This document shows positions 5,788-48,482 of a DNA stretch of 64,000 nucleotides, in pieces; the first letter of the stretch is position 1; every line of letters begins with the position of its first letter. The notes under the pieces were generated by a model that was not told the DNA's origin, searched no databases, and saw only the letters and a program-made list of their open reading frames with translations. A program made the translations under genes and the position numbers. The DNA comes from Pelosinus fermentans JBW45 (lineage in GTDB: Bacteria; Bacillota; Negativicutes; DSM-13327): assembly GCF_000271665.2 (NCBI RefSeq), contig NZ_CP010978.1:4246501-4310500 (forward strand). The letters run 5' to 3'.

Positions 5788-7308
5788 TTAGTGCGTTATA
5801 TATTCTTCCGGAAAATATTTGTCGATAAAATAATTACCCTGCGTTGGCAGCCACGCCGGAATCTGATAATAGTTATTTTTGATCGGCCGTAAAACCTGTT
5901 CCCGATAAACCTCATACTTAAATGCGTTACCTTCGATCAAATACAATTTTGTGTTATCTAACCCTATTTCTTTAACAGAAACGGTTTGAAAATACGGCAT
6001 GTATTTATTCTTATCAGGCGGCTTGGTGCAAACAATTATTATACTTTTTTTGTCAAATTGCCGAAAATCAGTGTACATATCATCGTGGCGGGCGTGAAAC
6101 GAACCCGGCCCAAAGACACTTATATATTGACCTGTATAGTAATAGAGCAATACCGACTTAGAATAGCTTTCGGTAGTCAAAATATAATCCTTAGTATAAG
6201 GCTTGAGGCTATCCACTACTGCCTGGGGTTTAAGATAGAATAACGCTTGCTGATAAGTCTTGCTTTGTGTCAATTTTTCAGGCGGTTCAATCACGATGTA
6301 CGCTATTAAGAAATTTATAGCAAACGTACACCCCGCCACCAACAACGACGCTTTGCGGAAAGTTGCTTCATTAAAGCGAAAGATGGTAAGAATGAATACA
6401 AATGGTATGAAAGCCAGCGGCCAGTGAATGCCAATTGATTTGGTGAAAGATAACAGGGCAAATATGCCCAGAGGCACAAAACATAAAATGGAATGGTAAC
6501 GTCGGAGTGACTCTGCAGCCACAAATTGCCGCGTTAATTTCACCGGACGAAGTAAGAAGTAGATCACAACAGGCGTCAGCAAAAACAGCAATTGCCCCAG
6601 ATAAGCCAAGAAATATCCAAACTTAAAGGTGCCTATATCGTGATTTCGGTTAAATACATTAAACATAATATTCGACCAGGCATGAGTGTAGTTGTAGTAT
6701 AGATTCAGCAGACCAAAGGGTATGGTACAAACAACCACAACGGCAAGCGCGGCAAATCCCTGGCGATTACGCTGATAAATCAGCACATAGACGCCATAGG
6801 CAATGAGAAGTAAGACTGAAAAATATTTTGATAAAAAAGCGCCCCCGAGGAAAATCCCTGCTAAAATTAAGTACGGCAGATTATTACGGTGCAGACCGTG
6901 ATAAAAGCAGACCGCCGACAGTGAAACAAACAAACAAAGCGGCGTATCGGTGGTAACCAATATATTCATCATATTGAACGGTGATACTAAAAATAAGATT
7001 ACCGCCCAGCGAGCGAGATTTTTATCGAGAACTTTTAACAGACTATAAATAACAGCACTAACAATATACGGGAAAATAAGCGGTGGGAGACGAAGGGCAT
7101 ACGGACTTGCGCTAAATTTCATAATTAGAGCAAGCAGCCAGCCAATCATTGGCGGATGATCATAAAAGCCGATATCCGGAAACGTTCCCCATGTATAGAA
7201 TAAGGCCTCATCACCAGTGAACGGAATCACATACGCCAGCAAAGACTTTATCAAAAATGTGGCCATAACTGTTATCCATAAAAGCTTGTTAGTAGACAAT
7301 CGCATCAT
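5788..7308 (-). CDS. GT39/ArnT-like membrane glycosyltransferase
   Basis: Polytopic membrane protein of 506 residues (about 10-12 hydrophobic helices in the first 350) with a soluble C-terminal domain. The early periplasmic loop has paired acidic and DHPP residues (FTGDEALFYTWG, then GFYDHPPMIGW). This is the signature of the PMT/ArnT (GT39/GT83) family, which moves a sugar from a polyprenyl-phosphate carrier to an acceptor outside the membrane. In ArnT the acceptor is lipid A; here it is unknown. Downstream genes could supply the donor: sugar dehydrogenase, epimerase, lipid charging (GT2) and flipping (GtrA). The start is weakly supported: AAAGG is only a few bases from the tandem ATGATG. 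Confidence 0.85.
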   Translation of the reverse strand: MMRLSTNKLLWITVMATFLIKSLLAYVIPFTGDEALFYTWGTFPDIGFYDHPPMIGWLLALIMKFSASPYALRLPPLIFPYIVSAVIYSLLKVLDKNLARWAVILFLVSPFNMMNILVTTDTPLCLFVSLSAVCFYHGLHRNNLPYLILAGIFLGGAFLSKYFSVLLLIAYGVYVLIYQRNRQGFAALAVVVVCTIPFGLLNLYYNYTHAWSNIMFNVFNRNHDIGTFKFGYFLAYLGQLLFLLTPVVIYFLLRPVKLTRQFVAAESLRRYHSILCFVPLGIFALLSFTKSIGIHWPLAFIPFVFILTIFRFNEATFRKASLLVAGCTFAINFLIAYIVIEPPEKLTQSKTYQQALFYLKPQAVVDSLKPYTKDYILTTESYSKSVLLYYYTGQYISVFGPGSFHARHDDMYTDFRQFDKKSIIIVCTKPPDKNKYMPYFQTVSVKEIGLDNTKLYLIEGNAFKYEVYREQVLRPIKNNYYQIPAWLPTQGNYFIDKYFPEEYITH

Positions 7309-7330
7309 CCTTTTTTTAAATATTAGAAAC

Positions 7331-7360
7331 CCTAATAGTTTGCCGACTAAAACTATTAGG
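7331..7360 (-). promoter_or_regulatory. 5' leader hairpin ahead of the GT39 operon
   Basis: An 11-bp perfect stem (CCTAATAGTTT / AAACTATTAGG) with an 8-base loop lies about 22 bases before the first codon of the GT39 gene. Its role is unknown; it could affect translation or mRNA stability. No T-run follows it, so it is not a standard terminator. Confidence 0.4.
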
Positions 7361-7605
7361 CCTATAGAAGCGCCACTTTTATCTTTTCTATTTATTCTTT
7401 AAACGACTTTTCACTCCTCATTTTGATTGATGCTTTATAATACCCTTGGAACATTACACTCTCATTAGACAAAGATTAGAATTAGATTAAAGTTTAAGAT
7501 CAAGCTACGATATCTTTAGCCTTGTTTATAATTAACTGATCAATAAAATTTGTCTAGATAATGGACGCAATGTCATCAGCCCTATATCAATATGACGCTC
7601 CAATC

Positions 7606-44881: not shown

Positions 44882-44935
44882 ATTAGGAGTATTAACACTG
44901 AAGGATTAGGAGTATTAACACTGAAGGATTAGGAG
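44882..44935 (+). repeat. Tandem 23-bp repeat containing ribosome-binding-like AGGAG
   Basis: Two exact copies of ATTAGGAGTATTAACACTGAAGG plus a third partial copy (ATTAGGAG) that forms the ribosome-binding site of the gene at 44945. The duplication therefore puts three AGGAG motifs in front of one start codon. Confidence 0.9.
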
Positions 44936-44944
44936 GGAAAGCCA

Positions 44945-45190
44945 ATGAATTGCAATATAATCCCTAATGGAATTCCAAATCTTGAGGAATTAGAAAAAAA
45001 GGCTTGCAAAACAATTGAATTTCCTAGATTAGCTACAACTACTGGTAATGCGATTGCATTGTTCACAATGCTCGTGTTAAAAGAAATCCTTAAACAACAG
45101 TCTGCTAATCCAATCGACAATTTGACTAATATTATTTCAATCTCCAATAGCATTGCTGATTTAAATAGCAGTATAAAGATCATTCAATAG
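44945..45190 (+). CDS. Small protein of unknown function, 81 residues
   Basis: Begins MNCNIIPNGIPNLEELEKK with AGGAGG nine bases upstream and is followed 50 bases later by a strong terminator. Helical middle (AIALFTMLVLKEILKQQ) and a Ser/Ile/Asn-rich tail (IISISNSIADLNSSI). No family recognised; it is not strongly hydrophobic enough to be a clear membrane protein. It sits in a patch of small unknown genes. Confidence 0.65.
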   Translation: MNCNIIPNGIPNLEELEKKACKTIEFPRLATTTGNAIALFTMLVLKEILKQQSANPIDNLTNIISISNSIADLNSSIKIIQ

Positions 45191-45242
45191 AAAAGCAACG
45201 CACACAAATACACTATTTCTATAGTATCGACCCAGCCAATGT

Positions 45243-45293
45243 CCCTCTGCAAGAAGGAACGTATTCAGGGGATATGTTCCTTCTTGCAGAGGG
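45243..45293 (+). terminator. Terminator after the 81-residue gene
   Basis: A perfect 18-bp stem CCCTCTGCAAGAAGGAAC and complement, 15-base loop, then AGTTTTCCTTTT. Confidence 0.8.
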
Positions 45294-45368
45294 AGTTTTC
45301 CTTTTGCAATACTATGAATTGTTTGCTTTTATGTATAAGAAAAAGCGCCCCGGAGGACGCCCATAAAT

Positions 45369-45554
45369 CTACCAACAGTGATCATGCTTGCAACCACAAT
45401 TACAACACAAGCAGCAATTCTCAAAACAGTGATGGCATACAGGACATTCACGACATTCTAAATCACATTCGAAATGGCATCTTGGGCATCTACGACGACA
45501 CTTTGAGCACTTTTTGTGGTGATCACAGCAATCCCGATCAGAATTAATACTCAT
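45369..45554 (-). CDS. Cysteine/histidine-rich small protein (possible metal binder)
   Basis: 61 residues of which 18 are Cys and 7 His, almost all as CC, CxC, CxxC and HHC clusters (KCSKCRRRCPRC, ECRECPVCHHC, CCLCCNCGC). It has no signal peptide. The pattern is that of metallothioneins or of Cys-rich spore coat proteins; I cannot place it in a named family. AAGGAGG lies 11-12 bases before the ATG, and a GC-rich hairpin with T-run follows. The opposite strand has a longer frame, but the Cys bias and signals favour this one. Confidence 0.7.
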   Translation of the reverse strand: MSINSDRDCCDHHKKCSKCRRRCPRCHFECDLECRECPVCHHCFENCCLCCNCGCKHDHCW

Positions 45555-45693
45555 TCTTTATCAAGCCTCCTTATCGTATTTATTACATAATATGTTGCTT
45601 TTATAAAAAATGTCCCTCGAGTGAAGAATAAGAACCTTTGACATTCTTATCCTCTAAAAAACAAAAACGCCCTACAGGACGCTTAGTTTTACA

Positions 45694-47568: not shown

Positions 47569-48303
47569 TTAATACCGAACTTCTTTTAAATATAGTCCAT
47601 GAGCAGGTGCTGTAGCGCCTGCCTTCTTTCGATCTCGTCCCTCAAAGATGGTCTTAAACTTCTCTAAAGAAGTCTTTCCTAACCCCACATTCACTAAAGT
47701 ACCCGTTATATTCCGCACCATATGATATAAGAAACCATTTCCCCAAAAAGAAAGCTCCAATATCCGATCCTGAAGTTGGCATTCAACTGCCATAATTGTG
47801 CGAATCGGACTAACACTTGCTCCTCCCGAGGCCCGAAATGCTGAAAAGTCATGGGTTCCGATGATTGTTTGTGCTGCTTCTTCCATTGCTGACACATTTA
47901 ATGTTTGTGGAATCGTCCAGACCAAATTCCGAAGAAAGGGATTTGGTACGGTATGCTGATAAATCTTATACACATATATTTTGCTTTGTGCGCTGTATTG
48001 AGCATCAAAGTTATCAGGGACCTCCTCTGCATCCAGAACTACAATATCGTAAGGCAGTAAACTCCTAGAGGCTATTGCAATACGATCTACAGGAATAGTG
48101 CTGGTCGTTTTAAAATTGACGACTTGTCCATAAGCATGAACCCCAGAATCAGTTCTGCCAGCCATATGTATCCTGAATGTATGACCGACAATCTTTGCCA
48201 ATTTGTCTTCTAGTACTTGTTGTATCCCGATCGCGTTAATTTGGCGCTGAAAACCATGATAGGCCGTGCCGTCATAAGCCAATGTTAATTTAATATTACG
48301 CAT
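47569..48303 (-). CDS. truA: tRNA pseudouridine synthase A
   Basis: Modifies U38-40 of the tRNA anticodon arm. 244 residues with the catalytic Asp in AGRTDSGVHAYGQV and the FSAFRASG and FLYHMVRNITG segments. Usual Firmicute neighbours are ecf genes upstream and rplM downstream; here helD and a repeat lie between. The ATG is the third codon-like position after a plus-strand repeat-poor spacer; the ribosome-binding site is modest. Confidence 0.96.
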   Translation of the reverse strand: MRNIKLTLAYDGTAYHGFQRQINAIGIQQVLEDKLAKIVGHTFRIHMAGRTDSGVHAYGQVVNFKTTSTIPVDRIAIASRSLLPYDIVVLDAEEVPDNFDAQYSAQSKIYVYKIYQHTVPNPFLRNLVWTIPQTLNVSAMEEAAQTIIGTHDFSAFRASGGASVSPIRTIMAVECQLQDRILELSFWGNGFLYHMVRNITGTLVNVGLGKTSLEKFKTIFEGRDRKKAGATAPAHGLYLKEVRY

Positions 48304-48358
48304 GTTTATACACCCCGTCGCTCACTATACATACACATATATAGCGAAAAAAATATTT

Positions 48359-48482
48359 GAAACACAGAGGACACAGAGCCGCTTACGCGGACACAGAGAA
48401 ACAAAGGGTCTACGTCTCTGTGCTCTCTGTGCTCTCTGTGCTCTCTGTGCTCTCTGTGCATCTCTGCGTCCTCTGTGTTTAA
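48359..48482. repeat. Palindromic intergenic repeat (R3) with five tandem TCTCTGTGC units
   Basis: Outer arms AAACACAGAGGACACAGAG and its near-perfect complement (18 of 19) at the ends. The left arm contains a mini-hairpin CCGC-TTA-CGCGG. The right side contains TCTCTGTGC five times in a row (48415-48459). Both look like internal growth of the same CACAGAG motif. Confidence 0.9.

Follow-up and report, generated by a model that had tools for sequence, protein, structure and literature searches.

A small cysteine-rich protein of Pelosinus with a sigmaK-type promoter is a probable component of the spore envelope

Within the window, by which we mean the whole 64-kb stretch of Pelosinus fermentans DNA that was analysed, we examined a short gene that starts with ATG and encodes a protein of 61 residues (MSINSDRDCCDHHKKCSKCRRRCPRCHFECDLECRECPVCHHCFENCCLCCNCGCKHDHCW), 18 of them cysteine (29.5%) and seven histidine (Table 1). 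A sequence-only reading had given these counts and the coordinates of the gene exactly and had left out only the strand, which is minus. The ribosome-binding site and terminator it reported are both in place, the latter as a GC-rich stem followed by a T-run. We observed three terminator-like sites in the scanned region, compared with 0.3 in shuffled sequence. In 40 simulated sequences of 64 kb with the dinucleotide composition of the window, ATG-initiated open reading frames of at least 45 residues reached a maximum of 11 cysteines or 15% cysteine.

Table 1 Features of the gene for the 61-residue protein, in positions of the 64-kb window.
Feature	Position	Strand	Basis
Coding sequence, 61-residue Cys/His-rich protein, stop codon included	45369..45554	minus	conserved frame, dN/dS about 0.1
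Ribosome-binding site AGGAGG	45566..45571	minus	read in sequence; kept in orthologs
-10 element CATATTATG of sigmaK-type promoter	45586..45594	minus	kept in non-syntenic orthologs; common to yabG
-35 element AC in conserved context GRGACATTTTTTAT	45612..45613	minus	17 nt upstream of the -10 CATA
Intrinsic terminator hairpin GGGCGTCCTCCGGGGCGCTT, then TTTCTT	45343..45362	minus	conserved downstream of the copies in genomes G005, G006 and G007

Orthologs of the protein are under strong purifying selection. Pairwise comparison of the gene with three close orthologs from the Pelosinus group gave dN/dS values of 0.08-0.15, and the frame is kept. Identity is 80-87% in three other genomes of the same genus and falls to about 50% in a further genome of the genus (G003) and in one from another family (G062). 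Conservation of the cysteine pattern, whose absence had been named beforehand as a refuting test, is present: 11 of the 18 cysteines are the same in all of the six closest homologs. A plus-strand open reading frame over the same bases (45239-45547) was rejected as a gene because conservation and purifying selection sit in the minus-strand frame. Genome G006 carries a truncated second copy of the gene. In genome G001 the ortholog is a remnant (L020:6260-6425; G001:C83:21259-21424) that is frameshifted, with cysteines already replaced; it lies about 4 kb from spoIVA and its -10 box is still intact.

The neighbouring open reading frames at 44945 and 45694 belong to no known family and the locus is not the same between species, so the surroundings of the gene in the window are uninformative. 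A near-perfect inverted repeat (CCCTCTGCAAGAAGGAAC...GTTCCTTCTTGCAGAGGG) occupies 45240-45292, between the two convergent genes. Since genome G007 keeps the hairpin of this repeat with a changed sequence, it is probably a two-way terminator. Two copies of a direct repeat, gagtattaacactgaaggattag, stand at 44885-44935, immediately 5' of the ribosome-binding site of the 81-residue frame at 44945, and a short tandem repeat at 48302-48470, between truA and a helicase-like gene, reads as CALCALCALCALC and HREHREHREHRE in overlapping frames.

The sequence-only reading had not recognised the family of the protein, which was fair: searches of Pfam and NCBIfam at E values up to 10 returned no match, nothing among their metallothionein, coat and metal-chaperone families matched, and no homology was found to the named coat families they contain (CotY/CotZ/ExsY, CdeC, CsxA). 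A profile search of the PDB gave a best E of 0.034, which is not significant, to zinc-ribbon and zinc-finger proteins. AlphaFold2, whose model contains no metals, gave no confident fold (pLDDT 49). We built a family profile from six members and ran it on 380 Negativicutes genomes, 13 of which contain members; no relatives were identified outside this class, and a search of plasmids gave no match. A literature search, with weak coverage of subscription journals, found no published description of the family.

The 18 members that we examined are 57 to 124 residues long. Their commonest plan, which is the ancestral one, has four CPxC knuckles with spacers of 7-10-9, while the spacers of long members alternate as 10-9-10-9-10-9-10 and connect up to eight knuckles. 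In the 61-residue protein the central CPRC-x10-CPVC is retained at residues 23-40, the first linker is shortened and extra cysteines have been acquired around the fourth knuckle (CCLCCNC); this comparison supports its placement as a derived, compacted and cysteine-enriched branch. The same genome holds two further intact paralogs (C1:2574767 and C1:2486804) and one remnant (C1:2470005), and across the family copy number is variable and gain and loss are rapid.

Outside the family, the closest resemblance is to the double zinc ribbon, DZR (Pfam PF12773). The family shares its CPxC-x10-CPxC knuckle spacing, and two CxxC knuckles about 10 residues apart, as in DZR, are found in the 61-residue protein. 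With the DZR profile, the seven-knuckle paralog G001_2 scored 29.3 bits against a gathering cut-off of 27.3; other members fell below the cut-off and the 61-residue protein itself gave no match. The family differs from DZR in having H or D where Gly usually follows the second knuckle cysteine, in linkers of 9 that contain an inserted xDCxC and in the arrangement of its knuckles as a ladder, and the 61-residue protein departs further through its short first linker and extra cysteines. Weak matches elsewhere in the phylum and on viral contigs were rejected as relatives: they are ordinary zinc ribbons (a small membrane-protein double zinc ribbon, a helicase insert) and therefore indicate shared spacing rather than demonstrated kinship. 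Regular CPxC knuckles with the spacing of zinc ribbons are a feature of its relatives, so the 61-residue protein very likely can bind metal, at sites predicted to be of zinc-ribbon rather than metallothionein type.

Orthologs occur in unrelated settings, beside a selenophosphate synthetase-like gene (G005), near dapF (G006) and between transposases (G062). About 50 nt upstream are conserved between them, whereas the flanks are not, and this block contains GRGAC-N16/17-CATATTATGTAAT. The motif AC-N15-18-CATANNNT was found within 100 nt upstream of 15 of the 18 family genes, compared with 0.44 expected from dinucleotide shuffles; the strict form is missing from the copies of G062 and G034 and from a paralog in the same genome (G000_2). 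For comparison we used yabG, an independent gene picked by homology, and spoIVA as a sigmaE control. Of the yabG upstream regions from 27 species, 11 contain the motif where 0.43 would be expected, and most of these show a similarly extended form, CATAGTATGTARTA; none of 20 spoIVA upstream regions contains it, and six of them have ATA-N14-18-CATATATT-like sites instead. In C. difficile, yabG is a sigmaK target and the -35 element, AC for sigmaK as against ATA for sigmaE, separates the two promoter types (PMC3789822). Since the family motif, the contrast between yabG and spoIVA and the C. difficile precedent all bear on it, predicted sigmaK control of the gene is well supported and is the strongest part of our account. 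Such control assigns synthesis of the protein to the mother cell, which need not mean that it ends up on the spore. A sigma-70 promoter was rejected: the single 9-of-12 match (GGGACA, TATTAT) overlaps the sigmaK-type box, and one match was found where 1.7 are expected.

Next to these comparisons we looked at other genes behind the same box in this genome. Exact AC-N17-CATANTATG occurs at 29 sites genome-wide, compared with 21 for a reversed control; as this raw count is only modestly above the control, we placed weight on the genes that follow the sites and on the comparison across species. Of the matches from a 16-mer motif search with 2 mismatches, most of those that have no gene behind them were set aside as chance. 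The genes directly behind AC-N17-CATANTATG sites include the gene under study and those for six CxPR-repeat proteins, three MSxGxCH peptides, a small CPYC protein, a 165-residue protein rich in His and Cys and a radical SAM/SPASM enzyme; a -10 of this kind, with a spacer of 15 nt, also precedes yabG. The six CxPR-repeat proteins (L091, L102, L110, L111, L113 and L119, near locus position 1500) all stand behind AC-N17-CATATTATG. Those tested matched nothing significantly in Pfam or NCBIfam, and the group is possibly a major cysteine-rich repeat family of the spore coat. Proteins with CxPR repeats are also encoded at a distance of up to about 2 kb from a family gene in genomes G006 and G054. The gene list points, suggestively, to co-regulation; it is not independent evidence, because the list itself was made with the motif.

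Several of these products have features of their own. The CxPR proteins are small paralogs that begin with a sequence like MDYxxWxxPEIExW and contain tandem repeats of the CWPRQG type. Three loci behind the same promoter motif (L097, L104 and L105) encode small, coiled-coil-like MSxGxCHxE... peptides, and in the L105 product two MSxGxCH copies are fused in frame, one after the other. The 165-residue product of L112 (1571-2065, plus strand), a gene behind the same motif, carries an insert rich in His, Cys, Asp and Glu (DCCDKDHENEHEHKHEDEKCKKDDKCC) and matched no family. A radical SAM/SPASM protein (L098:236-1468, minus strand; G000:C1 near 1908233) is also preceded by the same sigmaK-like box, and its substrate is possibly a coat peptide.

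All 13 family-positive genomes are among the 52 of the 380 Negativicutes genomes that have spoIVA (chance 1.4e-12, hypergeometric with phylogeny ignored, and weaker once phylogeny is counted). In one of them (G003) less than 1 kb separates the family member G003_2 from a Spo0E-like gene. Conversely, the family is absent from 39 of the 52 spoIVA-positive genomes, including the near-complete G002 of the same genus, and is thus an accessory rather than a core envelope protein. The gene is real and selected, but these absences and the frameshifted copy in G001 show it to be dispensable and lost at times.

The combination of a late-sporulation promoter with a family found only in spore-forming Pelosinus relatives suggests that the protein probably helps to build the outer shell of the spore. 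Our preferred reading, which we hold to be probable, is a sigmaK-dependent coat or exosporium component, made in the mother cell as a ladder of zinc ribbons that metal-thiolate bonds, disulfides or both keep together; we infer its location on the spore surface and the cross-linking chemistry. A cross-linked coat component was one of two functions proposed in the sequence-only reading, and it gains support from the conserved sigmaK-type promoter, the occurrence only with spoIVA and the cysteine-rich genes behind the same promoter. SigmaK-RNA polymerase would transcribe a single-gene unit late in the mother cell from AC-N17-CATATTATG, a step for which the promoter comparisons argue strongly. The product, with support from the family comparison a compacted, cysteine-enriched member of the tandem-knuckle family at zinc-ribbon spacing, may coordinate Zn2+ or another thiophilic metal through its knuckles in the reducing mother cell and so form compact, thiol-exposing units. 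At the forespore surface these units would be cross-linked to one another by metal-thiolate bridging and/or disulfides, and also to other cysteine-rich proteins under the same promoter, such as the CxPR-repeat proteins, which would toughen the shell.

Self-assembly of cysteine-rich envelope proteins is well established in other spore formers, where unrelated proteins of this kind surround the spore with disulfide-linked lattices; the authors of that work extend the lattice proposal to cysteine-rich proteins of many spore formers (PMC7333573). Like CotY/ExsY of Bacillus, CsxA of Clostridium sporogenes and CdeC/CdeM of C. difficile, the 61-residue protein is cysteine-rich, is a predicted late product of the mother cell and is likely a self- or cross-assembling envelope component. 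It differs from them in being much smaller and far richer in cysteine (30%), and it lacks a family match. It is also built on CPxC zinc-ribbon knuckles, which are not known in the CotY/ExsY, CsxA and CdeC/CdeM families.

The other proposed function, a metallothionein-like chelator, found no metallothionein family match in the profile search. Such a protein would act under sigmaK as a store or detoxifier in the mother cell, buffering Zn, Cu or Cd or loading metal into the spore without a structural part, and 18 cysteines and 7 histidines in 61 residues, together with CPxC knuckles at zinc-ribbon spacing, would suit this role. In its very small size and high content of cysteine plus histidine the protein does resemble the bacterial metallothioneins SmtA/BmtA and MymT. 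Unlike these, it has no profile match, its cysteine pattern is zinc-ribbon-like and its gene has a developmental, sporulation-type promoter with no apparent sign of metal-regulated expression. We recognised no metal transporter or regulator beside the gene or beside the copies whose neighbourhoods were read, and the same promoter precedes cysteine-rich repeat proteins of the CxPR plan, which do not look like metal-storage proteins. We consider a metal store unlikely, and the metallothionein-like reading weaker than that of a spore-envelope component.

The weak PDB matches to zinc ribbons and zinc fingers and the DZR-like spacing of the paralogs would also fit an adaptor or nucleic-acid-binding regulator of the late mother cell. 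As many as eight knuckles in tandem, a changing copy number and the rapid turnover of the genes look structural instead, a partner domain is absent, and the protein leaves the zinc-ribbon pattern through its added cysteines; we regard this role as improbable. Least probable, and hardly to be expected, is a modified coat peptide of the ranthipeptide or sactipeptide kind, matured by the radical SAM/SPASM enzyme, although that gene shares the AC-N17-CATATTATG box and the other products behind it are small and cysteine-rich. The enzyme is encoded more than 2 Mb away rather than adjacent, no RiPP family matched, and metal binding explains the regular CPxC knuckles well.

Negativicutes are spore formers with an outer membrane, and their spore-envelope proteins appear to be little characterised. 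The result is a defined family whose sigmaK promoter can be recognised, and with it a wider set of small cysteine-rich genes behind the same promoter. As a spore-envelope component, the family would add a new case, derived from the zinc ribbon, to the cysteine-rich proteins of this structure. It also raises a chemical question, whether metal or disulfide bonds hold thiol-rich spore shells together in strict anaerobes. Tentatively, and with some doubt, we suggest that the tandem zinc-ribbon ladders may be metal-thiolate blocks and that anaerobic spore formers may use zinc or another metal to cross-link or harden the shell, either in place of disulfides or ahead of them. If true, such blocks would solve the problem of cross-linking a shell through cysteines inside a reducing, anaerobic cytoplasm.

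A further observation concerns sigK of the same genome, which lies in two parts (L190:562-1053 and L190:about 7165-7425; G000:C1:2226561-2233424). An insertion of about 6 kb interrupts it; a 517-residue large serine recombinase adjoins the N-terminal half, and both junctions bear a 19-bp repeat in near-identical copies (AAGGAAATGAA). This is a skin-like element in a Negativicute; skin-like splits of sigK also occur in B. subtilis and C. difficile.
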